From positions 1 to 44,461 of the forward strand of contig CAJCBL010000112.1 in NCBI GenBank assembly GCA_903960515.1: a stretch of DNA of 44,461 nt, read 5' to 3'. This DNA is from an uncultured Verrucomicrobiota bacterium. GTDB lineage: Bacteria; Verrucomicrobiota; Verrucomicrobiia; Opitutales; Opitutaceae. A program made the position numbers and the translations under genes. Below are positions 22,718 to 40,890 of the stretch, one piece after another (the first letter of the stretch is position 1; every line of letters begins with the position of its first letter). Below the pieces are notes generated by a model, which saw only the letters and a program-made list of their open reading frames with translations, was not told where the DNA came from and did not search any database.

Positions 22718-22784
22718 CCGCCCAACTTCCGCCTTCCGCCTTCCCCCCTCTGCCTTAGGCCGCCGCCCAGGAGGTGCACGGTGA
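22641..22784 (+). CDS. Small single-span membrane protein with heptad-encoded tail
   Basis: A 47-residue protein. A strong AGGAGGT lies 5 bases before the ATG at 22641. Residues 1-24 form one membrane helix (MIAIAFGLIFAAPWFFIGFA). The tail from about residue 29 is written by a heptanucleotide array and reads SAFRLPPSAL. It ends 4 bases into the next gene, which has its own AGGAGGT. It could be a lysis or exclusion protein; no function is assigned. Confidence 0.6.
   Translation: MIAIAFGLIFAAPWFFIGFAFGRVASRPTSAFRLPPSALGRRPGGAR
22726..22757 (+). repeat. Heptanucleotide array inside a small membrane-protein gene
   Basis: Units CTTCCGC, CTTCCGC, CTTCCCC and CCTCTGC, in register, translated as FRLPPSA. 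Confidence 0.7.
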
Positions 22785-23035
22785 CCGATATCGCCGCCGA
22801 TACGTTGCACAAGCTCGCCTGCGCCGAGCGTATCTTTGCCTGCGAAGCGGCGAAGGCCCGGGGCCTCGTCTTCTTCGCCAGCGCTCTGGAGTACCGCCGG
22901 GAAGCGCAAGCCTTCGCCCGCCCCTGCGACCGCCGTGGGGCTCGCATCCTCATGGGCTATCTTGCTTGCAAGGCCATCCGGCAGGCCCGCCTGGCCGGCA
23001 TGGCCCCCGCCACCCTCTACCGCCCGATTTCCTGA
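22781..23035 (+). CDS. Hypothetical phage protein
   Basis: An 84-residue protein starting with GTG at 22781, supported by AGGAGGT a few bases upstream. It is mostly helical, with residues EYRREAQAFARPCDRRGARI in the middle and a Cys at residue 14. No family was recognised. It is one of the few genes here with a textbook ribosome site and no array in front, while the gap after it is an array. Confidence 0.6.
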   Translation: MTDIAADTLHKLACAERIFACEAAKARGLVFFASALEYRREAQAFARPCDRRGARILMGYLACKAIRQARLAGMAPATLYRPIS

Positions 23036-23041
23036 CCTTTC

Positions 23042-23076
23042 ATTCCGCAATACACACTCCGCAATCCGCATTTTTA
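23042..23076 (+). repeat. Heptanucleotide array before a start codon
   Basis: Five units: ATTCCGC, AATACAC, ACTCCGC, AATCCGC and ATTTTTA. CC and the ATG at 23079 follow directly. The array is nearly the whole gap. Confidence 0.8.
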
Positions 23077-23078
23077 CC

Positions 23079-23540
23079 ATGACCAATACCAAACTCTCCC
23101 AACTCGTAGCCGAGGCCGTGTGCCTCGACCGTTCCATCCGCGACCAGACCGAGCGCCTCAAAGAGCTCAAGGCCGCACTCGCCACCGAGGCCGATTCCCG
23201 TGCCGACGATGCCACGCCCACCGATGGCGGCGGCACATCCATCACCTTCGAGGGCGCCGATGGCTGCTATGCCAGGGTGACCACCAACGGGGCCACGCTC
23301 AAGAGCTCCATCAAGGCCGAGGGTAAGGACATCGAGAAGGTGAAGGCCGCCGCTGGCCTGCACTTCAACCGGCTCTTCGAGACGGTACTGGCATATTCGC
23401 CGGTCGAAGGCTTCCGCGACCAGGCCGCCAGCCTGCTGGGCCGCGATGCCGGCAAGCTGCTCAAGCTCTGCTCCAGCCCCGGGCGCACCTCGGTCTCTTT
23501 CGAGACCAAGGAGAGCGCGGCCGCCGTGGCGGCGGACTAA
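23079..23540 (+). CDS. Hypothetical phage protein with N-terminal coil
   Basis: A 153-residue protein. Residues 1-36 are a coiled coil (DRSIRDQTERLKELKAALAT). A beta-rich middle follows (TSITFEGADGCYARVTTNG), then helices (FRDQAASLLGRDAGKLLKL). Mu-like phages often encode a small nuclease-inhibitor or recombination helper here, but I do not recognise the family. There is no ribosome site; a heptad array occupies the leader. Confidence 0.6.
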   Translation: MTNTKLSQLVAEAVCLDRSIRDQTERLKELKAALATEADSRADDATPTDGGGTSITFEGADGCYARVTTNGATLKSSIKAEGKDIEKVKAAAGLHFNRLFETVLAYSPVEGFRDQAASLLGRDAGKLLKLCSSPGRTSVSFETKESAAAVAAD

Positions 23541-23580
23541 GGCAGAGCGAAGAAGGATGAGAACCAAACACCTAAAAACT

Positions 23581-24153
23581 ATGACGATTACCAAAACCCC
23601 CACCGCAGTGGACATGGATTTCGCGGTATTCACCTCCGGCCGAGCGCTGGCCCTGCTGCGGCAGGGGCAGCGCGAGAAGGCAGCCCGCGCCTTCGAGGGC
23701 CTCGCCATTATCCTGCGCGATGAAGAGTTGCCCGATCCCCTCCATAGCGGGCTTTCTGTTATCAAGGAGAGAGAGACAGCTACTCGATTGCTGAAATGGT
23801 GCATTCACCAGATGGAAGGCGAGTCTGGCGGATCGGTATCCTATTGGGTGAAGTTCCGAGAATATCGCCAGGCTAGGTTCTACCTAGCAACCCAAGCCCG
23901 CCGTTCCGCCATGACTCCCTCCGATCCGCTTGCCGTATATAACGACGCACATCGGGACGCCTTGCTCGTGCGCGATGAGGCCCGCCGCAGCGCAGCAGAT
24001 GCACTGGCGCAGGCCATTGCGTTGGGCACCGATGCATCTGCGCTCATCCCCTCGTTTATGGCTGCGCATGATGCAGCCGACCGCGCCTTCAACGCCGCCC
24101 GCGAGCAGGCCCGGCTCGACTACGAGCAGTGCGTGCTCCGCCCCGCCTCATGA
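23581..24153 (+). CDS. Hypothetical phage protein, helical
   Basis: A 190-residue protein from the ATG at 23581; an ATG at 23557 with a GAAGAAGG just before it is an alternative. The N-terminal part has a TPR-like helix pair (GRALALLRQGQREKAARAFEG). The C-terminal 80 residues are an Ala/Arg/Asp-rich helix (RDEARRSAADALAQ, AHDAADRAFNAAREQAR). Base composition from 23750 to 23900 is lower in G+C than its surroundings. Its stop overlaps the next ATG (ATGA). The role is unknown. Confidence 0.55.
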   Translation: MTITKTPTAVDMDFAVFTSGRALALLRQGQREKAARAFEGLAIILRDEELPDPLHSGLSVIKERETATRLLKWCIHQMEGESGGSVSYWVKFREYRQARFYLATQARRSAMTPSDPLAVYNDAHRDALLVRDEARRSAADALAQAIALGTDASALIPSFMAAHDAADRAFNAAREQARLDYEQCVLRPAS

Positions 24154-24911
24154 AGCCCCTCGGTATGAGCGCCAAGAAGGCGATGATGAAGTCCACCGGT
24201 TTGGTGCGGGTACAGCCCACCAAGCGCAACTATGGCGCGCACTGCCTCAATGCCGAGGCCAAGCGTGAAATCGACAAAGGTTTCCGCCGTTTCTGGGCCC
24301 GCCGTGGCCGCGATATAGCCGACCTCGGCTACTGCGGCACCCTCCGCAGATATTCCGCCTTCCGCCTTCCGCCTTCAGCCTTTCCGTCTATGCCCCTCCT
24401 CTCCAAACTCCAGAAACAGCAGGTCGCTCAGCTCGCCCGCCAGGCGTGGGAGCGCTGGGACGGCCGCGAGGCCTTTATCGAGGCCAACGGTGCCCTCTCG
24501 CTCTCCGCATGCTTCTCCGCCTGGCGGCACTGGCAGCAGGGCTTGGCCTGCGGCCAGCAGAGCCTGCGGCTGGCCACCAGCGAGGGGGATTTCGAGCGCC
24601 TGCGCGCCCACTTCCTCGCCCTGAGTGGCTTCCCTGTGCAGGCCGCCCGCGCACTGGTGCGCCATGCCACCGAGCCCGGCCGCATCGCGCTGTGGACGCT
24701 GCGCCAGGCACTGGCCGAGCGCGGCCTGCTTGAGAGCTACGCCGCCGCGATCTGCCGACGGCAGTTTCGCTGCGAGCTTCTGGAGGCCAGCGATCGCCAG
24801 CTCTGGTTCCTGATATTTACGGTGAGAAACCGGAGGAAGACCGCAGGAAGCACAGGCTCCGAAATCCGCACTCCGCAATCCTCAATCCGCAATGAGAAGG
24901 AGGCCGCATGA
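24150..24911 (+). CDS. Two small phage proteins joined in frame through a heptad array
   Basis: The ATG at 24150 overlaps the preceding TGA. Residues 1-67 are a basic Mu-gp16-like segment (SAKKAMMKSTGLVRVQPTK, NAEAKREIDKGFRRFWARRG). Then an array (24352-24386) is read through as YSAFRLPPSAFPS and leads in frame to an ATG at 24390, which begins a compact helical domain (LLSKLQKQQVAQLARQAWERW). The C-terminal tail SEIRTPQSSIRN is written by a second array. Two interpretations fit: one fusion protein of 253 residues, or two genes with the second starting at 24390 and the array having lost the stop of the first. Neither part has an assigned function. Confidence 0.5.
   Translation: MKPLGMSAKKAMMKSTGLVRVQPTKRNYGAHCLNAEAKREIDKGFRRFWARRGRDIADLGYCGTLRRYSAFRLPPSAFPSMPLLSKLQKQQVAQLARQAWERWDGREAFIEANGALSLSACFSAWRHWQQGLACGQQSLRLATSEGDFERLRAHFLALSGFPVQAARALVRHATEPGRIALWTLRQALAERGLLESYAAAICRRQFRCELLEASDRQLWFLIFTVRNRRKTAGSTGSEIRTPQSSIRNEKEAA
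24352..24386 (+). repeat. Heptanucleotide array bridging two reading frames
   Basis: Units ATTCCGC, CTTCCGC, CTTCCGC, CTTCAGC and CTTTCCG, followed by TCT and the internal ATG at 24390. No in-frame stop is present, so the array is translated. Confidence 0.8.
24863..24897 (+). repeat. Heptanucleotide array at a gene end
   Basis: Units AATCCGC, ACTCCGC, AATCCTC and AATCCGC, then AATGAGA, followed by an AGGAGG ribosome site for the ATG at 24908. Translated as IRTPQSSIRN at the end of the upstream gene. Confidence 0.75.
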
Positions 24912-25363
24912 GCTCCGCCACCCTTGAGGCCAGCGAGCGCCTGCGGCAGTTTCAGGCCGCGCAGGAAAGGCTCACCAGAGCGCACCGCGAGTTGCGCGCT
25001 GCTTCCGATGCCCTGTTTGCGATCACTGTGCAGGCCGCTCCGCTGGCCAACTGCCCGCCCGCTCTGGCTGCCCAGATGGGGAGCATCATCGAGGCTTGCG
25101 CCGCCGCCTGGCAACTCACCCCCGAGCAGTTGTTTGCCCCCACTCGCCGCCAGCCCATCGCCACGGCCCGCCAGATGGCGATGGCCCTGTGCATGGAGCG
25201 CACCTCCGCCACCCAATGGCAGGTGGCCGCCTTCTGTGGCAAGAGCCAGCACGGCACCGTGGCCTGCGCTGTGAGAGCGGTGCGCGCCCATTGCGATACC
25301 GACCGGCGCTTCGCCGCCACCTGGGCAGCGCTCAACGCTGCGCTAACGAAGAGCGAAGAGTGA
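24908..25363 (+). CDS. Phage protein with a DnaA domain IV-like DNA-binding domain
   Basis: A 151-residue protein. The ATG overlaps the preceding TGA and has AGGAGG 4-5 bases before it. Residues 1-45 are a coiled coil. Residues about 72-140 match DnaA domain IV: LTPEQLFAPTRRQPIATARQ corresponds to the family's basic loop and first helix, and FCGKSQHGTVACAVRAV to the helix-turn-helix signature that contacts the DnaA box (usually GRDHSTVLHA). There is no AAA+ domain. A role in recognising host origins or regulating phage replication is inference. The last codons run into a heptad array. Confidence 0.75.
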   Translation: MSSATLEASERLRQFQAAQERLTRAHRELRAASDALFAITVQAAPLANCPPALAAQMGSIIEACAAAWQLTPEQLFAPTRRQPIATARQMAMALCMERTSATQWQVAAFCGKSQHGTVACAVRAVRAHCDTDRRFAATWAALNAALTKSEE

Positions 25364-25379
25364 AGAACGCAGAACTCAA
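25345..25379 (+). repeat. Heptanucleotide array across a stop codon
   Basis: Units AACGAAG, AGCGAAG, AGTGAAG, AACGCAG and AACTCAA. The upstream gene's final residues and TGA lie inside it, and a looser CTAAACC-type repeat continues to the next ATG. Confidence 0.65.
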
Positions 25380-25415
25380 CCCGCGCCTCTTCAACCTAAA
25401 CCTTCCACCTAAACC

Positions 25416-25745
25416 ATGCTTTCCCCCTCCGAAATCCGCGACTCCAACTGGCAGCAGATCAGCGGGCACATGCACGGCCTGAGGCAGGTCGTTTACGAGG
25501 CCCTGCGCATGCACGGGCCCTGCACCACTCGCCAGTTGGCCGCCAAGGCCGGCATGGACATCCTCAGCGTGCGCCCGCGTGTAACCGAACTGGCCGAGCT
25601 TGGCTTTGCCGCATGCTCGGGCCGCGAAGACAAGGAAGGCATTTACCGTGCCTGCACCTACCAGCAAGCCGCCACCGCCCACGCCCAGCGCCAATCCTTG
25701 GCCCGAGGCGAAGGAGTGCAGGACGGCTTCGACTTCGCCTCCTAA
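25416..25745 (+). CDS. Winged-helix phage protein
   Basis: A 109-residue protein. Residues 24-75 form a winged helix: VVYEALRMHGPCTTRQLAA, then ILSVRPRVTELAELGF, then a wing ending in GIYRACT. This pattern is shared by many phage transcription or terminase-accessory proteins. It could be the middle-gene activator of this phage (the Mor/C place), but no sequence similarity to Mor was seen. Confidence 0.6.
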   Translation: MLSPSEIRDSNWQQISGHMHGLRQVVYEALRMHGPCTTRQLAAKAGMDILSVRPRVTELAELGFAACSGREDKEGIYRACTYQQAATAHAQRQSLARGEGVQDGFDFAS

Positions 25746-25748
25746 ATC

Positions 25749-25790
25749 ATTCCGCACTCCGCCATTCCGCAATCAGCACTCCTCATTTCC
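25749..25790 (+). repeat. Heptanucleotide array filling a gene gap
   Basis: Units ATTCCGC, ACTCCGC, (one extra C), ATTCCGC, AATCAGC and ACTCCTC, then ATTTCC directly before the ATG at 25791. Confidence 0.8.
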
Positions 25791-26327
25791 ATGTCCACCT
25801 ACGACCAATGGGCCAACGAGCGCGGCGTACCGGCTGCCCGCCTCATCGCCTTCGAGGAATGGCTGCTGGCGCAAATGCGCTCGCGCCTGGTGTGGCCCAC
25901 CGATCCCGCCGCAGCGCAGCGGCAGGCCGGCCAGTGCCGCGCCTTCGTGCTCGATGCCGTGGCTGAGCTGGGCGCGCACGGCTACCTTTTCCGGCCCAAG
26001 GAGCTCGCTGAGCTGCTCACCGGCAAGCTCGACCAGATCGCCCGCCTGCAAAAGGCCGGGAATGTGCTCGAGCTCTACCCGTATTTTCGGGCCACGTGGC
26101 GCACGTGGGTGCGCTGCTCCTCCGAAGAGTTGCGCGACCGGGCGCTGCTGTGCGGCAGCCATGTGCGCCAGATCACCGAGCGGGCCATGCGCGGCCCCTG
26201 CGCGCCACCCCCGCCGAGCCTCTGCGAGCTCGCCGCGCAACTGCGGCGGGAGCGCCGCAGCGCGAAGGCCGAAAGCGGAAAGTTGAAGGCCGAAACGCTT
26301 CAATCTTCCTTCGATCTTCTCCCGTAG
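25791..26327 (+). CDS. Hypothetical phage protein
   Basis: A 178-residue helical protein (LIAFEEWLLAQMRSRLVWP, LAELLTGKLDQIARLQKAG) with an Arg-rich C-terminal third. Its last 25 residues, SAKAESGKLKAETLQSS and onward, are written by a GAAGGCC-type heptad array, so the original C-terminus probably lay near residue 155. No family was recognised. Confidence 0.55.
   Translation: MSTYDQWANERGVPAARLIAFEEWLLAQMRSRLVWPTDPAAAQRQAGQCRAFVLDAVAELGAHGYLFRPKELAELLTGKLDQIARLQKAGNVLELYPYFRATWRTWVRCSSEELRDRALLCGSHVRQITERAMRGPCAPPPPSLCELAAQLRRERRSAKAESGKLKAETLQSSFDLLP
26264..26298 (+). repeat. Heptanucleotide array inside a gene end
   Basis: Units GAAGGCC, GAAAGCG, GAAAGTT, GAAGGCC and GAAACGC, in register, translated as the C-terminal tail of the protein at 25791. 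Confidence 0.65.
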
Positions 26328-26334
26328 GTCCGTC

Positions 26335-26362
26335 ATTCCGCATTCCGCACTCCGCATTTCCG
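26335..26362 (+). repeat. Heptanucleotide array abutting a start codon
   Basis: Units ATTCCGC, ATTCCGC, ACTCCGC and ATTTCCG run straight into the ATG at 26363 with no spacer. Confidence 0.85.
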
Positions 26363-26620
26363 ATGAGCCAACAGACCGTCTTTTCCTTCATCGCCACGGT
26401 TACCCCCCGGGGCGATGGATCGTTTGTGGTGCAGCCGGGCAAGCCCCAGCAGTGGCTGTGGGTGCGCGATGCCGCGCGCATGTACCAGGTGAGCCCCGAC
26501 GCCGTGCGCGAGTGGCTCTTGAAGGGGCTCATTGTTTCCCGGCGCGTGGGGCTGCTCAAGTACCAGGTGGAGGCCGAGAGCCTCGCCGCCTTCATTCGGC
26601 CGGACAACTGGCGCGAATAG
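26363..26620 (+). CDS. Small excisionase/MerR-like DNA-binding protein
   Basis: An 85-residue protein. Residues 34-75 (VRDAARMYQVSPDAVREWLL followed by LIVSRRVGLLKYQ) form the winged helix seen in phage excisionases and MerR-type proteins, where the helix-turn-helix selects DNA and the wing is a hairpin. It is the last gene before a 146-bp gap that appears to split early from late genes, so a late-gene regulator is a possible role. Confidence 0.6.
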   Translation: MSQQTVFSFIATVTPRGDGSFVVQPGKPQQWLWVRDAARMYQVSPDAVREWLLKGLIVSRRVGLLKYQVEAESLAAFIRPDNWRE

Positions 26621-26666
26621 GGAAGGCTGAAAGGCTGAAGGCTGAATGCTGAAAACTGAAGGCTGA
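26621..26666 (+). repeat. Heptanucleotide array, GAAGGCT type
   Basis: About six units of GAAGGCT and variants (GAATGCT, GAAAACT), one with an extra A. On the other strand the unit is the CTTCAGC type seen in the terminase gene, so both orientations occur. Confidence 0.75.
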
Positions 26667-26706
26667 ACAGGAGCCTAACCCAGCCTGTATATTCCGCGAT
26701 TAGCAG

Positions 26707-26725
26707 GAGGGGCAGGCGGCCCCTC
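26707..26725. terminator. Hairpin at the early/late boundary
   Basis: A perfect 7-bp stem GAGGGGC/GCCCCTC with a 5-base loop. No T-run follows, so it is either a weak terminator or a regulatory structure ahead of the late genes. Confidence 0.35.
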
Positions 26726-26766
26726 ACAGGGGGTGGATTTGTTGTGGTAGGTTCGGGGCGCACCGC

Positions 26767-27828
26767 ATGCGCTCCCTCTACGCTTTCCCGTCAGAGTCGT
26801 CGTCGTCGTCGGCCCGGTCCCTCGAAGGAGGGGCCGGGTTCGGGACGGAATGCGGAACGCGGAATGCGGATTGCGGAATGCCGCAATCCGAAGTTCAGCC
26901 TTCCTCCTCCAGCCTTCCCCCTTTCCTTCAGGCGCGCTACCACTTGGGCTGTGCGGGCAGGCATGTGGGCAAGGCCTTCGATGCCGTGCTCGACTCCCGG
27001 TTTGGCCCCCAGGTGTCCAACGCCCTCGTGTGCGTGCGGCTCTGGGTGCCGCTCTTCTTTCTGCTGATCCTCCTGCTCTCCGGCTGCTCCCTGTTCCGCC
27101 CGGCGCCCATCGTCATCACCCCGCAGCAGGGCAGCGCAGCCGTCCGCGCCGAGGCCCTCGATACTGCCGCCCAATCCCGCGCCGCCGCCGCTGTGAGCGC
27201 CGCCGCCCGGGCCAACGAGGCCAACCCCGCCGGAGCTCCCCGCGAGTCCACGGCCGGCGAGCTGGGCACCGCTGCCGCCAATCTTCCCCAGCCCTCTCCC
27301 GCCGATCTCGCCGCCGCCCTATCCCGGGTGGAGGCCGGCTTGCGCGGCGATCTTGATTCCGCCCGGCGCCAATGGGCCAGCGCCCAGGGCGATGCTGCCG
27401 GCCTACGACTTCAGATCGTAGCAGCCGCTGCCGCAGCGGAGCGCGAGCGCCTCGCCTCCTCCGCCTCGCTGGAAAAGCTCAAGGCAGACTTTGCCACGCA
27501 GCTCACCGCCGAGCGCCGCCGCGCCGAGGCCGATCAGCAGCGCCTCCTGGGCTGGATCTTCTACGGTGGTGGCGCCGTCCTCGTGCTCCTGGGCATTGGC
27601 TGCCTCACCGTCTTCGCCTCGCTGCCCATCGTGGGGCCTCGGGTGGCCGCCTCGCTCATCGCGGCCGGGTTTGCATCGATAGCGTGTGGCCGGGCCGTGG
27701 CGTGGATGCTCGCGCACCCGTGGGCCATCGTGGCCGGCATCGCCATCCCCCTGGCTGCTGCCGCCGCCCTAGCCATGGCCAACCACCACCACCACCACGC
27801 CAGCGCCGCCCCCGCCCCGCCCCTCTGA
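26767..27828 (+). CDS. Phage membrane lipoprotein-like protein, lysis candidate
   Basis: The longest frame starts at an ATG at 26767 (353 residues), but codons 27-55 are a heptad array in non-protein-like wording. The real start is more likely a GTG near 27013, immediately before VPLFFLLILLLSGCSLF, a lipobox-type signal. After it come an Ala-rich region, a coiled coil (about residues 185-255) and two or three membrane segments (about 258-330), and the protein ends with five consecutive His. Lipoprotein plus coil plus membrane segments between early genes and terminase suggests a spanin- or holin-like lysis protein. That is inferred, and no endolysin was found. Confidence 0.5.
   Translation: MRSLYAFPSESSSSSARSLEGGAGFGTECGTRNADCGMPQSEVQPSSSSLPPFLQARYHLGCAGRHVGKAFDAVLDSRFGPQVSNALVCVRLWVPLFFLLILLLSGCSLFRPAPIVITPQQGSAAVRAEALDTAAQSRAAAAVSAAARANEANPAGAPRESTAGELGTAAANLPQPSPADLAAALSRVEAGLRGDLDSARRQWASAQGDAAGLRLQIVAAAAAAERERLASSASLEKLKADFATQLTAERRRAEADQQRLLGWIFYGGGAVLVLLGIGCLTVFASLPIVGPRVAASLIAAGFASIACGRAVAWMLAHPWAIVAGIAIPLAAAAALAMANHHHHHASAAPAPPL
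26847..26930. repeat. Heptanucleotide array that reverses orientation
   Basis: Five units of GGAATGC type (26847-26881) are followed by CGCAATCC and AGCCTTC-type units. The switch point forms a perfect 10-bp hairpin, CGGATTGCGG/CCGCAATCCG with a 4-base loop, at 26867-26890. Confidence 0.7.
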
Positions 27829-27829
27829 T

Positions 27830-27871
27830 TTTCCGCACTCCGCAATCCGCCTTCCGCAATCCGCATTTCCC
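27830..27871 (+). repeat. Heptanucleotide array filling a gene gap
   Basis: Units TTTCCGC, ACTCCGC, AATCCGC, CTTCCGC, AATCCGC and ATTTCCC, then CCG before the ATG at 27875. It begins one base after the upstream TGA. Confidence 0.85.
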
Positions 27872-27874
27872 CCG

Positions 27875-28255
27875 ATGCCCGCCGACTCCCTCGCCCTTGG
27901 CCAATTCGTGCTCTCCCTCAGTGCCTTCCTCGCCCTCTGGCTGAGCCTGCGCAAGGTGGAGAAGGAGATTCGTGGCGGGGCCGAGAAGCGCGAGGTGGGG
28001 CCGCAGCCCTTCGAGATCAAGGCGCATCCCGAGTATGCCCGCCGTGAGGAGCTCGCCTATGTGGTGGCCCGGCAGGACCGCATGGACGCCAAGCTCGACA
28101 CCATCGTGAAAGACCTTTCCGAGGCCGGCGAAGATCGCGCCCGCCGCCTGCATGCCCGGCTCGATCAAGTCATCATCGCCGTCTCCGCCGGGTCCGCCTC
28201 CGTGGCGGAGATAAGCGGCGAGCTCAAGCGCCTCCCCTGCGACCGCTGCCCCTGA
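27875..28255 (+). CDS. Mu gp25-like protein (DUF2730 type)
   Basis: A 126-residue protein with one N-terminal membrane helix (FVLSLSAFLALWLSLRKVE). A cytoplasmic or periplasmic coil follows (RQDRMDAKLDTIVKDLSEA) and a C-terminal short helix ending in CDRCP. Size, topology and place directly before a gp26-like protein and the small terminase match the gp25 gene of Mu-like phages. The function of that family is unknown. Confidence 0.6.
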   Translation: MPADSLALGQFVLSLSAFLALWLSLRKVEKEIRGGAEKREVGPQPFEIKAHPEYARREELAYVVARQDRMDAKLDTIVKDLSEAGEDRARRLHARLDQVIIAVSAGSASVAEISGELKRLPCDRCP

Positions 28256-28265
28256 GCGCTTCCCC

Positions 28266-28300
28266 ACTCCGCACTCCGCAATCCGCCTGTCGTATTTCCC
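28266..28300 (+). repeat. Heptanucleotide array before a GTG start
   Basis: Units ACTCCGC, ACTCCGC, AATCCGC, CTGTCGT and ATTTCCC, then CC and the GTG at 28303. Confidence 0.85.
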
Positions 28301-28302
28301 CC

Positions 28303-28572
28303 GTGCTTTCCGCTTCCGACATCCTCCGCGTGCTCTATCTGGCCGACCCCATCGCTGTGGCCGAGCCCATGATCCGCCGCGACGCCGGCCTGATGCGCAA
28401 CGGCCGCCAGTCGGGCGAGGGCGAGACCGCCGCCGCCCTGCGCCGCCTCGATGCGCTGGGCTTTGCCTGGCATTCCATCGACCCGCTCACCGGCGACACC
28501 ACTTGGCGGCTCACTGCCGCCGGCCGCGCCCAGGCGCGCATGCAGGACGGCCTCCCCGCCACCACATCGTGA
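28303..28572 (+). CDS. Mu gp26-like winged-helix protein
   Basis: An 89-residue protein with a GTG start. Residues 5-75 form a winged helix (ASDILRVLYLADPIAVAEPM; ETAAALRRLDALGFAWHS; TTWRLTAAGRAQA). Its TGA overlaps the GTG of the small terminase (GTGA). In Mu-like genomes gp26 lies in this place. A role in packaging regulation is only suggested by position. Confidence 0.6.
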   Translation: MLSASDILRVLYLADPIAVAEPMIRRDAGLMRNGRQSGEGETAAALRRLDALGFAWHSIDPLTGDTTWRLTAAGRAQARMQDGLPATTS

Positions 28573-33386: not shown

Positions 33387-33407
33387 CCACCCAACTCCTC
33401 CGCACTC

Positions 33408-33809: not shown

Positions 33810-33848
33810 CCCACCCGCTCCAGCAACTCAGAACCCTCCGCTTCTCCT

Positions 33849-34778: not shown

Positions 34779-34853
34779 GCCCTTGCGCCATCATACGCCC
34801 ACGTCGGTGGGTGCTGCCGGGGCGCAGTAAGCCGGCAGACCGTGTTGCGCCGC

Positions 34854-34890
34854 GCCCGGCGGCGTCCTCCGACGACCGGGCATCATTTTT
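34854..34890 (+). terminator. Intrinsic terminator after the major capsid gene
   Basis: The outer stem is GCCCGG/CCGGGC and the inner stem CGTC/GACG with a CTCC loop, followed by ATCATTTTT. It should reduce read-through into the minor genes and so raise capsid output relative to them. Confidence 0.7.
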
Positions 34891-34952
34891 CCCGCAGGCA
34901 AAAAGCGACCCGGGGCGGGGCGAAGCGCCGCTCCCCCTTCCTTTCCCTCAAT

Positions 34953-34980
34953 AATCCGCACTCCGAAGTCCTCACTCCGC
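34953..34980 (+). repeat. Heptanucleotide array before a start codon
   Basis: Units AATCCGC, ACTCCGA, AGTCCTC and ACTCCGC, one A, then the ATG at 34982. Confidence 0.8.
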
Positions 34981-34981
34981 A

Positions 34982-35326
34982 ATGACCACGATCATTCAGG
35001 GCGAAAATCGCCTGCTCACCCGCCAGCTCGTGTTGGCCGACGGCACCACTCCGCTCGCTGTGGCCTCGCTTGCCGCCGTGACAGTAGCACTTGAGCAGAA
35101 GGGCGTGGTGCTGGCCTCCTACACTTTGGGCACCGACTCGCAACTGCGCGCCGGGTCCGATGCCTCCACTCTCATACTGGAGCTGGTCACCGCCTTCACC
35201 GCCACCAACAAGGGCGCCATCCGCGAGCGCTGGACGCTTACCCGAGCCAACGCCGAGTTCTTGGCCGAGCCCACCCACCAGCAAATCGACCGCATCGTGC
35301 TCGACGATATTTCGCTCACCACATGA
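34982..35326 (+). CDS. Hypothetical virion-module protein
   Basis: A 114-residue protein that is mostly beta-strand (RLLTRQLVLADGTTPLAVAS; SYTLGTDSQLRAGSDAST; IRERWTLTRANAEF). The pattern suggests an immunoglobulin-like or BppU-type baseplate/receptor-binding accessory domain, but that is uncertain. It heads a coupled run of four genes (overlap, overlap, 3 bp, overlap) that includes the collagen-like protein, so they probably act together on the virion surface. Confidence 0.55.
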   Translation: MTTIIQGENRLLTRQLVLADGTTPLAVASLAAVTVALEQKGVVLASYTLGTDSQLRAGSDASTLILELVTAFTATNKGAIRERWTLTRANAEFLAEPTHQQIDRIVLDDISLTT

Positions 35327-35508
35327 CGCTGCTCGCCTCCCCCTCTCTGCCGCTCCTGCGCCGCCTTATGCTTGGCGCTGCTGCCCTGTGCCGCCTTACC
35401 GCGCCAGCCGCCCCGGCCCCCATCACCCTGATCAGCGCCTTCCCCGATATCGGGGTGCTGCCGGAAAATACATGGGAAGCGGCCGCGTGGGAAACGCTTA
35501 CCTGGTAA
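35323..35508 (+). CDS. Small hypothetical protein of the surface-protein group
   Basis: A 61-residue protein with its ATG overlapping the preceding TGA. It has a hydrophobic, signal-like N-terminal half (LMLGAAALCRLTAPAAPAP), then PDIGVLPENTWEAAAWETLTW. The three closely spaced Trp and Thr/Glu-rich end recall a linker or tip peptide. It ends 3 bp before the collagen-like gene. The coupled position supports expression; the role is unknown. Confidence 0.5.
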   Translation: MTLLASPSLPLLRRLMLGAAALCRLTAPAAPAPITLISAFPDIGVLPENTWEAAAWETLTW

Positions 35509-35511
35509 ACC

Positions 35512-36633
35512 ATGGCCACCATCCAAACAGTACAGCCCGGCGCCGCCGCCCCCGGCCGCCTGGTGATCAACGCGAATTTCGAGGCGATCAACCAGGAGCT
35601 GGCCACCCTCTCCGGCACTCCGGGCCCGGCCGGGCCCGCTGGCCCACAAGGGCCCGCTGGCGCCTCCGGTCTGACAGGTCCGGCCGGTCCGACCGGTCCC
35701 GCCGGGGCTGATTCGACCGTGGCTGGCCCGACAGGTCCTACTGGCCCACAGGGGCCGCAGGGGACTACTGGAGCCACTGGCCCGCAAGGGCCGAGCGGGG
35801 CCGATTCCAATGTAGCCGGCCCGACCGGTCCTACCGGCCCTACTGGTCCGACCGGCCCCGCCGGGGCAGACGGGACCTCTCTGGCTAACGCCTCCACCCT
35901 AGCCAAAATCACCGAAGCCGCTGGCGCACCGCTGTGGGATGGCTCCGCATGGCCAGGCGGGGGAGGAGGTAGTGCCCCCACTCGGGCCGCATTTGTCGCA
36001 ATCGAGAGCGATTTCATGTTCACCACAATCCCGGGGTTTACTCAGGCCGCTTCGGCCTCCGGGTCCAGCGCCTCATGGTACGCTGGGGCTAGCCATCCGG
36101 GTATCGCCACGCTGAAGTGCTCGTCGCTCGCAAATTCAGGCTACCAATACTCAGCCGGCGGAAACTCCATCATCATCGGCGGCGGCGAAAAGATGACGCT
36201 GGTGTTCCAGCATTTACAGGTTCGGGCCACGGCCTTTGCCCGCTACGGATTCCAGAACTCGGCCGCGATCCAGACCGCCCCGGCCACCGGGATCTATTTC
36301 GACATCACCGGAAACGGGACTGCGATCACCCTAACCGGCCGCTGCCGCAACAGCGGAACGGAAACCGCTACCGCGACATCCTGCACCCTCACCGCCGGCA
36401 CGTGGTACACCGGAACTATTGAGGTGGCCTCAGGGGTCACGGGAGCGACCTTCACGATCTACTCCGAAGCCGGCGCTCAGCTCTGGCGGGAAATAGTCAC
36501 GACCAATCTGCCGGGCGGGGCCACGCAAACCAGTTTCCAACTGGCGGCCGGCGATACCTCCACGGCTGGAGGAATCGACATCGCTTACCTCGATTACTTC
36601 CGACTCGAAATCGCCCGCACACTCACCCGATGA
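35512..36633 (+). CDS. Collagen-like virion surface protein
   Basis: A 373-residue protein. Residues about 37-120 are Gly-X-Y triplets ([23 protein letters not shown]) interrupted twice by ADSTVA/ADSNVA. A short coil and Gly-rich hinge follow, then a C-terminal beta-sandwich of about 220 residues ([40 protein letters not shown]; the [13 protein letters not shown] end) similar to lectin-like or LamG-type tips. The N-terminal 35 residues ([14 protein letters not shown]) are the usual phage attachment helix. It should trimerise as a fibre and bind surfaces. Its place among head genes suggests a capsid fibre rather than a tail fibre. Confidence 0.75.
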
Positions 36634-37073
36634 ACTGCGAAAACTGCGCCCATCTCCATACCGCTGCATGGGATCCCGGAATCCCCCGCCGCTGCTACCG
36701 CCACGGCTCCGGCATCTGGAGCGATGCCACCTCAGAGCGCACCGGAGGCCTGTCGATCCAGTGCGGCCCGGAGGCCCTCTACCTCCAAGAGGGAGCCCCC
36801 TCTGAAGATCCAGCCCCAGCACCCACCATCCCCGAGGCCGTCACTCCTCGGCAAATCCGGCTGGCCCTGATCGGCATCGGGGTGTTTCCCGAGGCGATCA
36901 CGTCCGCTCTGGGCTCCATACCCGATCAGGTTCCCCGCGCCAAGGCGCTGGCCGAGTGGGAATTTGCTACCGAGGTCGCCCGTGCGCACCCGCTCATCGG
37001 CATGCTCGGCGCCGCCCTCGGCCAATCTCCCGCCCAGATCGACGCGCTCTTCATCGCAGCCGCAGGGCTTTGA
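36630..37073 (+). CDS. Phage accessory protein with a Cys/His N-terminal knuckle
   Basis: A 147-residue protein with its ATG overlapping the collagen-like gene's stop. Residues 1-24 contain CENCAHLH and a later CYRH, a possible zinc knuckle. Residues about 70-147 carry the small phage domain [18 protein letters not shown] to [20 protein letters not shown] and [10 protein letters not shown], which I know from ends of tail-fibre or XkdW-type proteins. It may help assemble the collagen-like fibre encoded just upstream. Confidence 0.55.
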
Positions 37074-37082
37074 TTTCCTCCC

Positions 37083-37117
37083 ATTCCGCAATCCGCAATC
37101 GGCACTCCGCATTTCCG
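37083..37117 (+). repeat. Heptanucleotide array before a start codon
   Basis: Units ATTCCGC, AATCCGC, AATCGGC, ACTCCGC and ATTTCCG, then CTC and the ATG at 37121. Confidence 0.85.
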
Positions 37118-37120
37118 CTC

Positions 37121-37573
37121 ATGGCTTGGCTCCTCCTCACCTCCGACCACATCGCCACCGCCCTCACCGGCCCCGAGTTGGCCGCAGCACAGTCGGCCGC
37201 GCTGGCCAGCGGCCAGAGCGCCCCGCTGGACGACATCCTCGCGCAGGTCTCGCGCTACGTACGCGCACGTATCGCGGCCTGCTCGCGCAACGCCCTGGGC
37301 GAGGGCGACACCATCCCCGACGAGCTGCTTTCCGCCGCCATCGACATCGCTGTGTACCGCCTGGCCAAGCGCCTGCCCGGCAAGGTGCTGGCCCGCCAGG
37401 AGCGCATCGATGCCGCGGCCGCCGCCGAGTCGCTGCTGCAGGACGTAGCGGCCTGCAAGCTCTCGCTGGCCCAGCCGCTCACCGCGACCACCGAGGTGGT
37501 GAGCGCCCCGGCCTCGCCCACGTTCTCCGGCCGCACCCGCCGCTTCACCCGCAGCACTCAAGACGGGGCGTAA
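37121..37573 (+). CDS. Mu gp36-like protein (DUF1320)
   Basis: A 150-residue protein. DUF1320 features are LLLTSDHIATALTGPELAAAQ, then a middle helix (PLDDILAQVSRYVRARIAAC) and a long Ala/Arg-rich helix (LARQERIDAAAAAESLLQDV) leading to a short beta tail. Members lie at the head-tail connector in Mu-like phages, so it is probably an adaptor protein. Arrays lie both before and after it. Confidence 0.8.
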   Translation: MAWLLLTSDHIATALTGPELAAAQSAALASGQSAPLDDILAQVSRYVRARIAACSRNALGEGDTIPDELLSAAIDIAVYRLAKRLPGKVLARQERIDAAAAAESLLQDVAACKLSLAQPLTATTEVVSAPASPTFSGRTRRFTRSTQDGA

Positions 37574-37580
37574 CGGCCCC

Positions 37581-37615
37581 AATCCGCACTCCGCAATCCG
37601 CCCTTCGCATTCCCG
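37581..37615 (+). repeat. Heptanucleotide array before a GTG start
   Basis: Units AATCCGC, ACTCCGC, AATCCGC, CCTTCGC and ATTCCCG, then CC and the GTG at 37618. Confidence 0.85.
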
Positions 37616-37617
37616 CC

Positions 37618-38829
37618 GTGCCCGCCTCCTCAACCATCTCGCCCTTCACAGCCGCCGTGCAGCGCCTGGCCGGCCGCACTCCGGTGGCCTCGGCCCTGGA
37701 CTCCGCCCAATGGCAGGAGCTCGCGATCGGCCTGCGCGAGCGGGCCTTCTTTTCGGCCGGGGTGGAGAATATCCGCACTCTGGCCTCCATGCAGGCCAAG
37801 CTCGATGAGGCGCTCAGCCTAGCCGGTGGGCCCGACCAGGCCTTCATCGACCGCTCCAACTTCGTGGCTCAGTTGCGCAACGAGCTCGGCGCCCCCGAGG
37901 GCGATTCCGGCTCGCTTACCGATCTCTCCAGCACCCGCCGGCTCGGGCTTATCTACGATTTCCAGAAGGAAAGCGCCACCGAGTACGGCCGCTGGCAGGC
38001 CGCGCAGGACCCCGATCTGCTGGGCGCCTTCCCGTGCCAGGAGCTGGTGCGCATGGAGTCCCGCGAAGCCCCCCGCGACTGGCAGGCCCGCTGGGCCGAT
38101 GCCGGCGGCAGCAGCTACTCGGGGCGCATGATCGCCCGCAAAGACGATCCTGTATGGAGCGCGATTTCTCGCTTTGGCACTCCATACCCGCCCTTTGACT
38201 TTGGCAGCGGCATGGGCGTGGCCGATGTGGAGCGTGCCGAGGCCATCGCCCTGGGCGTGATCCCGGCCGACGCCGTGGTGCAGCCCCAGAGTGAGGACTT
38301 CAACGCCACCCTTGAGGCCAGCCTGCCCGAGGCCAAGCCCGAGGTGCTTGAAGGTTTCAAGCAGCTCTTCGGCGACCAGGTCGACGTTGACCGGGCCGGG
38401 AAGATCACCTGGCAGGGAAGCCGCATCGCCAAGCTCTACGATGCCGCGCTTTCGGATCCCTCGGCCAAGTGGTCGCTGGATCTGGGCGGTGCCACCCCGG
38501 CCGCGCAGATGGCGGCGAAAGCCGCTGGAGCAGACCTTGCCGACTCTCGGCTCATGCTTGATGCCGACCACGTGCGCCATATCGAGAACCGCCATGGAGC
38601 GGAGGGCGAGACACAGGCAGACCAGCGCCCGGTCACCCGCCTGGATCTGCAACTGGTGCCCCATGTGTGGCGCGAGCCCGATTCGGTTGTTGTGGGCAAA
38701 CAACCCGGTTCTCTGGTGTTCACAAAGAACCTCCTCGGCAGGTCTATGATGGTCACATGGCAACGTGAGTCCAATGGGACCGTCCGGGTAAACACACTAT
38801 TTGTGAAAAAAGAAGGGGGCCAGCCGTGA
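37618..38829 (+). CDS. MuF-type head protein with C-terminal PBECR nuclease-like domain
   Basis: A 403-residue protein starting with GTG at 37618. Residues about 40-215 match the Mu F/SPP1 gp7 head-morphogenesis domain (LRERAFFSAGVENIRTLASM; SATEYGRWQAAQD; the ISRFGTPYPPFDFGSGMGV end). From residue 312 comes a separate module: HIENRHG, then LQLVPHVWREPDSVVVGKQP, LVFTKNL and RVNTLFVKK. This is the pattern of the phage Barnase/EndoU/ColicinE5-D/RelE-like (PBECR) nucleases that tail many MuF proteins and are thought to be injected. His318, His321 and His326 are candidate catalytic positions. The TGA overlaps a 34-residue gene. Confidence 0.82.
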   Translation: MPASSTISPFTAAVQRLAGRTPVASALDSAQWQELAIGLRERAFFSAGVENIRTLASMQAKLDEALSLAGGPDQAFIDRSNFVAQLRNELGAPEGDSGSLTDLSSTRRLGLIYDFQKESATEYGRWQAAQDPDLLGAFPCQELVRMESREAPRDWQARWADAGGSSYSGRMIARKDDPVWSAISRFGTPYPPFDFGSGMGVADVERAEAIALGVIPADAVVQPQSEDFNATLEASLPEAKPEVLEGFKQLFGDQVDVDRAGKITWQGSRIAKLYDAALSDPSAKWSLDLGGATPAAQMAAKAAGADLADSRLMLDADHVRHIENRHGAEGETQADQRPVTRLDLQLVPHVWREPDSVVVGKQPGSLVFTKNLLGRSMMVTWQRESNGTVRVNTLFVKKEGGQP

Positions 38830-38930
38830 GGCCAGCCCCCATCCATGCCGCCGGGTGCCCGATGTTGTTACACCCCGAGCTGTACGCCCAAGACGCCTTC
38901 CGGCGCGCAGCGGAGACCGTACACAAATGA
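38826..38930 (+). CDS. Coupled 34-residue microprotein between MuF-nuclease and gpG
   Basis: A GTG start at 38826 overlaps the MuF stop (GTGA), with an AAGGGGG ribosome site before it. Its TGA (38928-38930) overlaps the ATG of the gpG gene (ATGA). It reads MRPAPIHAAGCPM, then LLHPELYAQDAFRRAAETVHK. The second half is a plausible amphipathic helix. Exact coupling on both sides argues that it is translated. Its place directly after the nuclease domain makes a cognate inhibitor one possibility; a simple coupling peptide is another. Confidence 0.5.
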   Translation: MRPAPIHAAGCPMLLHPELYAQDAFRRAAETVHK

Positions 38931-39514
38931 GCGCAGAAATCAAGATCCTGCGCGATGAGGCGACTCCCGCCCTATCGTCCCTCCACGCCAGCCTGGCACC
39001 GGCCCGCCGTCGGGCGCTGTGCGGCGTGCTGGGCAAGAAGCTCGAAGGCGTGTACCGCGCCTGGTTTCGCAGCCGCGAAGCCGATTCGCCCAACAAGATG
39101 GGCTGGCCTCGCCAGCATTTCTGGTCGCGCATCGCCAAGGCCACCGCCTTCGATCCCTCGCAAACCACGGCCGAGCGCGCCGTCGTTGTCGTCTCCGATC
39201 CAGCTATCGGCATGAAAGTGACCGGTGGCACCATTCGCCCCAAACAGGCGAAGTTCCTCGCGATCCCGCTGCGCCCCGAGGCCTACGGGGTGCGCCCCTC
39301 CGCCCGCACCATCCCCGGCATCTTCTTTGTGCGCTCCAAGGGGGCCAACGGTGGATTTCTGGCCACCCACGAGGGCAAGGCCCTGCGCGTGTACTGGCGC
39401 CTGGTCGCGAAGGTCACCCAGCAGGCCGATCCTCGTGCGCTGCCTCCCCAAAGCCAAGTCGCCGCCGAGCTCCTGCGCACCGCCTCCTCTTTCGTCGCCC
39501 GGCAGCGCTCCTGA
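38927..39514 (+). CDS. Virion morphogenesis protein (Mu gpG-like)
   Basis: A 195-residue protein. The ATG at 38927 overlaps the microprotein stop. Family features are LRRALC-type helices at the start, KMGWPRQHFWSRIAKATAFD in the middle, and the phage_tail_S/virion-morphogenesis core (VVVVSDPAIGMKVTGGTIRPK, then KFLAIPLRPEAYG). In Mu-like phages gpG follows gpF and is needed for joining heads and tails. It is intact. Confidence 0.75.
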   Translation: MSAEIKILRDEATPALSSLHASLAPARRRALCGVLGKKLEGVYRAWFRSREADSPNKMGWPRQHFWSRIAKATAFDPSQTTAERAVVVVSDPAIGMKVTGGTIRPKQAKFLAIPLRPEAYGVRPSARTIPGIFFVRSKGANGGFLATHEGKALRVYWRLVAKVTQQADPRALPPQSQVAAELLRTASSFVARQRS

Positions 39515-39556
39515 CCCTCATTCCCTTACTCCTTCAGTCCCTCACTCCTTTTCCCC
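39515..39556 (+). repeat. Pyrimidine-rich heptad-like array
   Basis: Looser units CCTCATT, CCCTTAC, TCCTTCA, GTCCCTC and ACTCCTT fill the gap up to the GTG at 39557. The 7-base phase is less strict than in the TCCGC arrays. Confidence 0.5.
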
Positions 39557-40030
39557 GTGAATCCTTTCCTCCTTCTCGAAACCCGCTTGGCCGCACTGCT
39601 CGCCGCGCACCCGTATTTTGCGGGCGTGCCGGTGATCACCGAAGCCGGGCAAAACATCGAAGCCGCTATCGAGGCCGAGCTGGCCCGCGCGGGCTTTTGC
39701 GCCGTGATCACTCTGGGGCGTGGCGACTGCGGGGCCGAGCCCAGCGCCAACCGCGTATCGCTGGCCGACCGGCTGGAGTTCACCATAGCCCTCGCCCGCA
39801 ATAGCGCGCTGGACTCCGCCCATCATACCCTCGACGGCCTCTGGGCTGCCATCGCCGCCATCAACGGCCAGGGCGTGGACTCCGCGCGCGGCGCAGCCTC
39901 GGGGTATTTCCAGGTGGGCGCCCACGACTCCAGTGCCACCGCCGATGCCTCCTCTGGCATCTACGTGCAGCAGCTCACCGTGGTGGCCCGCATCCGCCTC
40001 AACCCCACCACCTACTCGCTGCCCGTGTAA
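39557..40030 (+). CDS. Tail terminator/gp37-like protein
   Basis: A 157-residue protein with a GTG start. It fits small tail-completion proteins of Mu-like phages: an N-terminal helix (LLLETRLAALLAAHPYFAG), strands FCAVITLGRGD and LEFTIALARNSAL, a helix with HHTLDGLWAAIAAINGQ, and a final strand (VQQLTVVARIRL). It would cap or length-gauge the tail between the connector and the tube. Confidence 0.65.
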   Translation: MNPFLLLETRLAALLAAHPYFAGVPVITEAGQNIEAAIEAELARAGFCAVITLGRGDCGAEPSANRVSLADRLEFTIALARNSALDSAHHTLDGLWAAIAAINGQGVDSARGAASGYFQVGAHDSSATADASSGIYVQQLTVVARIRLNPTTYSLPV

Positions 40031-40052
40031 CGTGTAAATTTCCCATCCGAAC

Positions 40053-40087
40053 AATCCGCACTCAACAATCCGCAATCCGCACTAATC
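40053..40087 (+). repeat. Heptanucleotide array before a start codon
   Basis: Units AATCCGC, ACTCAAC, AATCCGC, AATCCGC and ACTAATC, one C, then the ATG at 40089. Confidence 0.85.
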
Positions 40088-40088
40088 C

Positions 40089-40790
40089 ATGGCCCTCCCG
40101 TCATCTCCCTTCGTCTCGGCGAACTCCATTTTCGCCGGGCTTTCCATCATTCAGCTCAAGCTCTCCCCGGCCCTCTCCGGGGTGACTTCCGCCACCACCA
40201 TCGTAACCAAGGTGGCGCACGGCCTCACCGCCGGTCAGCAGGTGATCTATGTGTCGGGCACCGGCTTCACCGGCCTCACTGCCGCCACCGCCTACTACGT
40301 GCTCTACCTCACGGCCGACACGTTCTCGCTCTCCGCCACCAGCGGCGGCTCCGCCATCTCGGTGGGCACCTCCACGGTGGGCGTATTCCAGCCCGTGCTC
40401 ATCTTCGAGGCCGCCCAACTCGACGACGATCCCGAGCAGGAGGTGAAGAGCCTCGCCCGTCCGGACGCCAGGGGCGTGCTGCGCAACGTGCGCAATGTGC
40501 GCACCAAGGCCGCCGACAAGTACACCTTCGGCCTCGATGAGGTGAAGCGCCTGCTGGCCATCTTCTCGGGATCGCTCTCGGGCCGGGTGATCGGCACCTG
40601 CACGCTGTGGATTCCCGACCTCGACGATGCGAGCGGCAAGTGCGCCCTCAAGAGCGAGGCCGATTTCGCCTGCACTGTCACCCGCGACGGCAAGGTGACC
40701 TACGGCAATTCCGACTTCAGCAAGGCCACCATCAAGATCGAGAGCAACAAGCTGGGCGACCTCACCTGGACGCCCGACGCCACGGCCTAA
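40089..40790 (+). CDS. Major tail tube protein with an inserted repeat domain
   Basis: A 233-residue protein. The first 20 and last 110 residues look like a tail tube subunit (LIFEAAQLDDDPEQEVKSLA, then TFGLDEVKRLLAIFSGS and YGNSDFSKATIKIESNK). Residues about 30-95 are an inserted module, VAHGLTAGQQVIYVSGTGFT to ATAYYVLYLTADTFSLSATS, common in phage surface proteins and probably exposed on the tube. It is followed by a terminator-like hairpin, as expected for an abundant virion protein. Confidence 0.7.
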   Translation: MALPSSPFVSANSIFAGLSIIQLKLSPALSGVTSATTIVTKVAHGLTAGQQVIYVSGTGFTGLTAATAYYVLYLTADTFSLSATSGGSAISVGTSTVGVFQPVLIFEAAQLDDDPEQEVKSLARPDARGVLRNVRNVRTKAADKYTFGLDEVKRLLAIFSGSLSGRVIGTCTLWIPDLDDASGKCALKSEADFACTVTRDGKVTYGNSDFSKATIKIESNKLGDLTWTPDATA

Positions 40791-40810
40791 GCGGCTGCCT
40801 AAGGCCAAAC

Positions 40811-40848
40811 GAAGAAGGCGGAACGCAAAAGCGCCCCGCCTTCTTCTT
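40811..40848 (+). terminator. Terminator-like hairpin after the tail tube gene
   Basis: A perfect 11-bp stem GAAGAAGGCGG/CCGCCTTCTTC (40811-40821 and 40836-40846). A small inner CGC-AAAA-GCG stem tops the loop, and the 3' arm is T-rich. It mirrors the terminator after the capsid gene. Confidence 0.6.
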
Positions 40849-40851
40849 CCA

Positions 40852-40886
40852 CTACTCCCTACCCGCTACTCACCACTCGCTACTTC
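40852..40886 (+). repeat. Heptanucleotide array, CTACTCN type
   Basis: Units CTACTCC, CTACCCG, CTACTCA, CCACTCG and CTACTTC, then TTCC and the ATG at 40891. The unit differs from TCCGC but keeps the 7-base phase, so the phase rather than the sequence is conserved. Confidence 0.8.
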
Positions 40887-40890
40887 TTCC

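Follow-up and report, generated by a model that had tools for sequence, protein, structure and literature searches.

We analysed a stretch of 44,461 nucleotides from an uncultured Verrucomicrobiota bacterium of the Opitutaceae (GenBank assembly GCA_903960515.1, contig CAJCBL010000112.1, positions 1 to 44,461 of the forward strand; hereafter the window), in which many gaps between genes are occupied by tandem arrays of degenerate seven-base units. The window is contig C112 of a 5.5-Mb genome in 379 contigs (G000), which was compared with two congeners of other species (G001 and G002). From ~22 kb onward it carries a Mu-like prophage, recognized by Pfam and PHROGs scans of 10 window proteins each, which identified a portal protein (PF06074), a terminase, a head maturation protease and a major head protein; neither scan named an RNA-binding reader among these proteins. 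An Rfam scan of the window at gathering score returned no matches. Gene starts throughout are the predictions of a home-made caller, not of Prodigal. The prophage gene junctions were either ATGA/GTGA overlaps or gaps. A previous reading of the DNA letters (the sequence-only reading) had noted such overlaps at the gapless joins, and our own gene calls recovered eight of them, at 24150, 24908, 28569, 29108, 30877, 32358, 35323 and 36630.

Lag-7 periodicity was examined in all gaps of 25-400 nt, with 1000 shuffles per gap. The results showed that 12 of the 18 prophage gaps reached p < 0.05 and 11 reached p < 0.005, whereas none of the window's eight chromosomal gaps reached p < 0.05, confirming that heptamer arrays precede prophage genes. 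Shuffling of the intergenic gaps yielded 0.0 arrays in the window, compared with the 10 observed. The 428-nt chromosomal gap containing an array at 13714 exceeded the size limit and was tested apart (p 0.006); this array lies 102 nt past a stop codon and 300 nt ahead of a start codon. The units found in the window were NNTCCGC, CTTCAGC and CTACTCN. By lag-7 matching, the last repeating base of the pre-start arrays lay 6-19 nt from the start codon, and the distance of 0-4 bases claimed previously is obtained only by counting a decayed last unit, usually TTTCC.

Seven of the positions listed in the sequence-only reading (26335, 27830, 28266, 37083, 37581, 40053 and 40852) were recovered with scores of 11-17 and p values of 0.001-0.002. 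An NNTCCGC array (26334..26356, + strand; score 14, p 0.001) fills the 35-nt gap before gene 26363, and a TCCGCAN array (27832..27865, +; score 17, p 0.001) fills the gap before gene 27875. Further TCCGCAN arrays lie before gene 28303, which starts with GTG (28261..28286, +; score 15, p 0.001), and in the 44-nt gap before gene 37618 (37577..37608, +). CAATCCG arrays precede gene 37121, in a 47-nt gap (37082..37111, +), and gene 40089 (40052..40081, +; score 11, p 0.002), and a CTACTCN array precedes gene 40891 (40852..40884, +; score 12, p 0.002); the arrays before genes 37121 and 37618 were detected by both the lag-7 scan and the gap test. Two listed arrays were weaker: a TCCGCAA array before gene 23079 (23042..23070, +; gap p 0.004), reported by Tandem Repeats Finder (TRF) at 23044-23070, and an imperfect TCCGCAN array before gene 25791 (25749..25785, +; gap p 0.003), whose one-base phase slip and limits were read by eye. 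A third, a weak TCCGCAN array that runs up to the ATG of gene 34982 (34953..34981, +; limits by eye), was marginal, with a gap p of 0.025 and a higher score at another lag. At 25345, an array of CGAAGAG units was indeed present (25347..25378, - strand; score 15; p 0.066 for its gap alone). It overlaps the stop codon of the upstream gene 24908-25363, is reversed and stops 37 nt short of the following start codon, and so does not belong to the pre-start arrays.

We also detected seven arrays beyond those listed previously. Five CTTCCGC units (22726..22761, +; lag-7 score 15, p 0.001) lie in the gap before gene 22781, which also has AGGAGGTG. ORF 24150-24911 contains a TTCCGCC array 7 nt ahead of an in-frame ATG at 24390 (24353..24382, +; score 21) and, at its 3' end, a TCCGCAN array before gene 24908, which has GGAGG (24858..24893, +; score 19). 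A reverse GAAGGCT array (26631..26667, -; score 20) lies directly past the stop of gene 26363-26620, and a composite of reverse GGAATGC units followed by forward CAGCCTT units (26846..26926, +; score 26) precedes gene 26965. The remaining two, at 26256 and 29309, were scored by the lag-7 scan. With its in-frame array and second array at the 3' end, ORF 24150-24911 may be two genes, the inner one starting at ATG 24390, or the arrays may have grown into coding sequence.

The expectation that the arrays extend from the chromosomal part of the window to the whole genome was borne out. Three consecutive TCCGCNN units matched 68 times in the window's own genome, compared with 2 matches for the reversed pattern. 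The pattern was present in 21 of 57 relatives, with the same genus richest (50 and 125 matches) and several genomes of the same family positive, including Opitutaceae bacterium VE3 and Opitutae bacterium RH-23may17-663; it was found in 1 of 20 genomes from other families of the order. A dialect-free scan of a 1.04-Mb sample (contigs C1-C100, first 20 kb), from which homopolymer arrays (one poly-G contig end) had been removed, detected 79 intergenic and 14 coding lag-7 arrays. Shuffled gaps of equal composition yielded 0.85, so the excess previously proposed as a check was present here as in the window. The other lags between 4 and 16 gave 2-13 intergenic arrays in the same sample, save the harmonic 14 (47). 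Several dialects coexist in one genome, among them CTTCAGC/CTTCCGC, NNTCCGC, ACTCGCT (CTACTCN) and AATCGNN. Lag-7 arrays were also in excess in many other taxa, such as other Verrucomicrobia (25 vs a mean of 1.0 for five control lags) and Planctomycetota (14 vs 0.6), in a biased set of loci each fetched for holding one such array (that array uncounted); this agrees with the known abundance of heptamer repeats. Literature searches on heptamer arrays in Verrucomicrobia or Opitutaceae, judged by titles and abstracts, found no report.

We compared array positions with random placement within gaps. For G000, 70 of the 89 arrays were kept, those without two called neighbours or not fitting their gap being dropped; the G002 stretches were chosen for holding arrays or orthologues, so that array density there is not a genome estimate. 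The previously claimed nearness to start codons was not borne out in the short gaps of the prophage: in gaps below 80 nt (8 arrays), 5 arrays ended within 10 nt of a start versus 4.8 expected, as in random placement. It held in the long gaps of the chromosomes. In gaps of at least 80 nt, 12 of 62 arrays in G000 (3.3 expected) and 18 of 58 in G002 (3.4 expected) ended within 10 nt of a start, and none of 2000 random placements matched either count. In a gene-caller-free test, which asked for the ATG of an 80-codon ORF within 12 nt of the array and used shifted controls, the counts were 14 of 85 versus 6.7 (G000), 15 of 93 versus 7.0 (G002) and 17 of 46 versus 3.5 (related phage contigs). In a second caller-free test, an ATG lay downstream of 34 of 87 TCCGC arrays and on the antisense side of 13 of 87. 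A caller trained on mixed contigs placed 10 of 30 phage arrays within 12 nt of a start (5.7 expected, p 0.007); for stops at the same distance the count was 13 of 30 (6.7 expected). This result was set aside in favour of the gene-caller-free test. Heptamer arrays are thus widespread, and their association with start codons was found for this lineage and for related phages.

The orientation of the arrays was biased at starts. Where a start was the nearest border within 20 nt in G000, the pyrimidine-rich strand was the sense strand in all CTTCAGC/NNTCCGC arrays (11:0) and all ACTCGCT arrays (4:0), and AATCGNN arrays had a fixed orientation of their own (2 of 2); 2 of the 89 intergenic arrays fitted no dialect and were left out of this table. 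Near stops, the reverse orientation was found in 9 of 13 arrays in G000 and in 5 of 10 in G002. Pyrimidine-to-purine counts in G000 were 14:2 at starts and 4:9 at stops (Fisher p 0.003). In G002, of the 22 arrays lying no more than 20 nt from a start, 17 were pyrimidine-sense and 5 purine-sense, and the comparison of starts with stops (15:5 and 5:5) gave p 0.23. Some gaps were ordered stop, reversed array, forward array, start. In G001 and G002, two CTTCAGC-type arms before gene L238:14898 pair over 16 bp into a hairpin with a loop of 6 nt, and T-rich sequence follows it. Judged by sequence, the CTTCAGC dialect thus looks to double as the arms of intergenic hairpins resembling intrinsic (rho-independent) terminators in loop and T-rich tail, but the arms here carry a 7-base repeat. 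Unlike such terminators, the pre-start TCCGCAN arrays mostly had no partner arm nearby (by eye).

We next consider the leaders themselves. A Shine-Dalgarno (SD) motif was absent from 22 of 24 array genes, and 2 of 8 array genes in the window have a strong one. Among non-array genes of the sample with gaps above 30 nt, 13 of 414 (3.1%) had a strong SD, a smaller share than the 5.4% found at random intergenic sites (binomial p 0.04), so that the lack of SD is not special to array genes. A 16S search of this assembly, made to read the anti-SD, found no match. Strong SD-like motifs were commoner at starts that overlap the upstream gene or lie within 4 nt of it (24 of 113 in the G000 sample, compared with the 13 of 414). 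The sequence-only reading had proposed that the arrays keep the start open in SD-less genes, and array leaders were indeed unusually open. The predicted folding energy from -40 to +20 was -5.0 kcal/mol for array leaders and -12.7 kcal/mol for other leaders in G000 (22 vs 417 genes, p 2e-7), and -5.3 versus -15.1 kcal/mol in G002 (19 vs 167 genes, p 1e-8). When the array leaders were turned round, the energies became -15.7 (G000) and -18.0 kcal/mol (G002), and 41-42% contained an ATG instead of 0-5%. In start-proximal arrays, G made up 13% of the sense strand overall, with values of 0-15% across the seven genomes or phage contigs counted.

The genes flanking the compared gaps are ~80-94% identical among G000, G001 and G002, yet the gaps differ. 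Gene L230:11032 is preceded by CTTCAGC units in G000 and by CTTGTCA/CTTGGCA units in G001/G002, and the orthologous starts in G001 L375 and G002 L390 have CCGTCCA and TCCGCAN, respectively. Gene L166:16063 has AATCGNN in both G000 and G002. In G000 the gap L238:16143-16255, presumably pgk-tpiA as read by eye, contains an inverted pair of CCCATNA; G001 has a plain GC hairpin there, and G002 a different, heptamer-like sequence. Among 49 co-placed orthologue pairs, a strict call found arrays in both members of 3, in one member of 6 and in neither member of 40; these pairs are not independent, as one gene can enter three pairs and many loci were fetched for their arrays, and the strict call overlooked a clear array in L315 and a possible one in L282. 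When positions 22001-42000 of the window were searched against G001/G002, only short matches of at most 79 bp were found, nearly all of them on arrays. The 7-base phase therefore persists while the word changes, as claimed previously within the prophage and now also seen between some orthologous genes. The different words at the same genes suggest that an open, unfolded leader, and perhaps the rhythm, outweighs the exact sequence.

The related phages were IMG/VR contigs whose portal or head protein is related to that of the window (20 and 2 loci). At a score of 12, 10 of the 22 had no lag-7 array, and L412, L416, L419, L421 and L425 had 6-9 arrays each in words of their own, coding arrays included. 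Before homologues of gene 37121, which has CAATCCG in the window, a scored period-7 array was found in 2 of 17 contigs (L425, CTGAAAA; L416, CTGACCT), a set that includes the near-duplicate contigs L411/L414 and L427/L428. An AACTCGA array before the L412 homologue was seen by eye, below the score threshold. Before homologues of gene 37618, CTGACTT units were found in 1 of 10 contigs (L416). Leaders with other periods were also seen by eye: a 9-base period (AGACCCATC-like units) before the portal gene in L417 and L419, and an 8-base period before the gene 37121 homologue in L410.

Unit order was analysed in 79 TCCGCAN arrays comprising 341 units, with at most one core mismatch allowed per unit. 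At the free base, neighbouring units were equal at a frequency of 0.256, compared with 0.346 in within-array shuffles (p < 0.001, low), and next-but-one units at 0.497, compared with 0.347 (p < 0.001, high). Four other dialects showed no excess likeness between neighbouring units, and two dialects had a weak excess at a unit distance of 3 (p 0.02 and 0.04). The decay of similarity with unit distance was left unused, as it is biased by the lag-7 detector. Simple slippage, which the sequence-only reading had offered as an origin, was not supported: units resemble their neighbours no more than they resemble units farther off, and one-unit slippage was rejected as a sufficient recent source. The TCCGCAN unit order points instead to 14-nt steps or to the loss of identical neighbours.

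Taken together, the best-supported reading of these sequences is that forward pre-start copies may function as open leaders without SD, or are at any rate tolerated in that role. We give about an even chance to its fuller form, in which degenerate heptamer arrays, present across the lineage and in some related phages, are kept before starts for this reason. Seven-base tandem arrays would accumulate in the intergenic DNA of this lineage and of some phages related to the prophage, arising by tandem duplication, perhaps in 14-nt steps for TCCGCAN, followed by the loss of identical neighbours. They would be kept before starts, mostly in one orientation, because a G-poor and unfolded mRNA leader results. 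The host organisms appear hardly to use SD pairing, and their ribosomes would probably benefit from an open leader. As the prophage arrays match the host dialect, they were probably formed or remodelled in this host or its near relatives.

Several observations weigh against this leader reading. Within 10 nt of stop codons, enrichment was found too (8 of 62 arrays vs 3.1 expected in G000 and 7 of 58 vs 2.7 in G002, p 0.01 each), which a leader role does not explain. Named loci of other taxa showed no start proximity in the gene-caller-free test (28 of 273 vs 23.5, p 0.33); random distance from starts, the outcome named in advance as adverse, thus applies to this mixed set and not to the two genomes of the genus. 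When any start codon was accepted, the TCCGC arrays showed no contrast (48 of 87 downstream, 42 of 87 antisense). Shuffled array leaders were nearly as weakly folded as the real ones (-5.7 and -6.5 kcal/mol; beyond-composition p 0.03 and 0.04), and the low structure mostly follows from base composition. Only 22 of the 439 leaders with gaps of at least 40 nt in the G000 sample plus the window carry an array, so initiation does not require arrays. At gene L238:14898, CTACTCN units occur in G000, whereas the leader in both G001 and G002 is plain and pyrimidine-rich. The phages closest by portal or head protein (L420, L409 and L429) had no arrays in the stretches examined, and arrays are rare among the gene 37121 homologues, with the third case seen only by eye.

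The main rival is a neutral account, in which heptamer duplications arise anywhere and survive mainly in the margins of gaps, next to starts and past stops, promoters holding the middle, with an orientation that avoids false ATGs and hairpins at the start, and without function. We consider it doubtful, although it explains the stop-side arrays better, since enrichment at stops as well as starts is what it predicts. The ATGs and strong folding that array leaders would acquire if reversed, and the lack of start preference in other taxa, also fit it. So do the phage junctions: the homologous junctions measure 4, 9 and 3 nt in L420, L409 and L413 (before gene 37618) and 3 nt in L429 (before gene 37121), where those of the prophage are ~45 bases and filled with arrays. 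It is less easily reconciled with the genes where two or more species or phages carry arrays of differing words, though these genes are few and their loci partly chosen for arrays, or with the uneven filling of short gaps: among genes with gaps of 31-80 nt, 6 of 13 in the window have an array close to the start, compared with 1 of 67 in the chromosomal sample.

We regard as improbable a stronger claim, that the seven-base rhythm itself, rather than the word, is selected or made. Some process would then re-create period-7 leaders at the same starts in hosts and phages, with dialects for each lineage, because a copying enzyme or some stage of initiation proceeds seven bases at a time.

Even less probable is a spreading repeat, which recombination or a mobile process would copy from site to site, leaving each genome with a few dialects. 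Positions 11709-11762 of L189 recur many times in G001/G002, mostly as 30-50 bp at 82-97% identity, and prophage arrays match sites in the sister species at up to 97-100% over ~30 bp; but the matches listed stop at or near the array borders, and with a fixed 5-6-base core, 1-2 variable positions and ~100 arrays per genome they may be chance, on a rough estimate. Equally unlikely is an array of binding sites, each unit bound by an RNA- or DNA-binding protein (S1-like, Csp-like or a phage regulator) needing 7-base spacing: the fixed core with a free last base would suit such a protein, and for the TAACTGA repeats MacGregor put forward readers of the S1, Csp or Csr kind (available part of PMC4679880), but the core invariance is partly built into the search, and one sequence-specific reader cannot serve all arrays, as the word differs between some orthologous starts within the genus and between phages.

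Why many bacteria gather seven-base tandem repeats, and whether these have a role in translation, has been a question since at least 2007. In one genus with three sequenced species, and in related phages, we find orthologous starts that share the rhythm but differ in the word, so that recognition of a sequence can be told apart from effects of rhythm or composition. Short tandemly repeated repetitive (STRR) sequences occur in heterocystous cyanobacteria, a host range that differs from that of the present arrays, whose carriers include Opitutaceae VE3 and Opitutae RH-23may17-663.

Direct repeats of the heptamer TAACTGA are described in marine Beggiatoaceae, some Cyanobacteria and Bacteroidetes and, in Beggiatoaceae, have been proposed as translational elements (available part of PMC4679880); the sequence-only reading, which noted that the cyanobacterial heptamer repeats are not known as translation leaders, needs amending to that extent. 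According to the same excerpts, those repeats resemble ours in being mostly intergenic seven-base tandems, forward, within several nt of the start and over the expected ribosome site, with few SD motifs and one G per unit. Here the forward placement within several nt of starts applies to a significant excess of the arrays, not to all, and the scarcity of SD is shared with most non-array genes. Between two Cyanothece strains, small differences are mostly 7-nt steps, and one set is reversed near the upstream ORF (excerpts of PMC4679880). As far as those excerpts describe it, the TAACTGA system has one exact word, whereas here there are several degenerate dialects per genome and differing words at some orthologous starts; a strong presence in the prophage and some related phages, and units unlike their neighbours, also set the present arrays apart. 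None of the window units is TAACTGA or a rotation of it, and the CTGAAAA/CTGACAA units of the related phages L425/L418 are one base off its rotation CTGATAA.

GGGNATC heptamers of Xanthomonas and Nostoc are enriched in non-coding DNA and form G-quadruplexes in vitro from their G runs; ahead of starts their G-rich strand is the non-coding one and past stops it is the coding one, in most cases no more than 50 bp away (available part of PMC4692102). Over-representation of heptamer arrays in non-coding DNA is shared, and the strand rule at starts and stops is reproduced significantly in G000 but not in G002. A G run in each unit is not shared, as the units of start-proximal arrays here contain roughly one G each, and runs of three C or G in window arrays were confined to single units (by eye). 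Long simple sequence repeats with 7-nt units, for which slippage was proposed, are attributed to Mrazek et al. 2007 in the excerpts of PMC4679880; the greater likeness of neighbours expected from slippage is absent here. Because the Beggiatoaceae (PMC4679880) and Xanthomonas/Nostoc (PMC4692102) repeats, in the parts of those papers available, already carry start proximity, the strand rule and few SD motifs, the present system is a variant of them. What is new here is the many dialects, the differing words at orthologous starts, the alternation of units and the phages.

Several minor features were observed in and around the arrays. The word CCTTAGG/CCTAAGG adjoins heptamer arrays at L160 8503, L166 17590, L199 8366-8428 and, in the window, at 22751 and ~40800 (by eye). 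A 57-bp dispersed repeat at L189 2079-2135 has further copies in G001 and G002; it matches both strands of one place in G002 (C127:4418-4474) and is therefore palindromic. A stretch of ~80 bp at L166 11873-11962 has more than 30 matches in G001 and G002 and may belong to a multicopy gene, as a domain or repeat. A seventy-base poly-G at a contig end (L194 9705-9774) is probably an assembly artefact. Within the prophage, a DnaA C-terminal DNA-binding domain (PF08299, E 5e-13) was identified in the small phage protein encoded by gene 24908-25363, and the tail-region gene 35512-36633 contains long Gly-Pro-rich repeats (by eye), with 9/18-bp tandem repeats at 35666-35705 and 35816-35858. The C terminus encoded by 37618-38829 matches PBECR3, a phage-encoded nuclease-like domain (Pfam).

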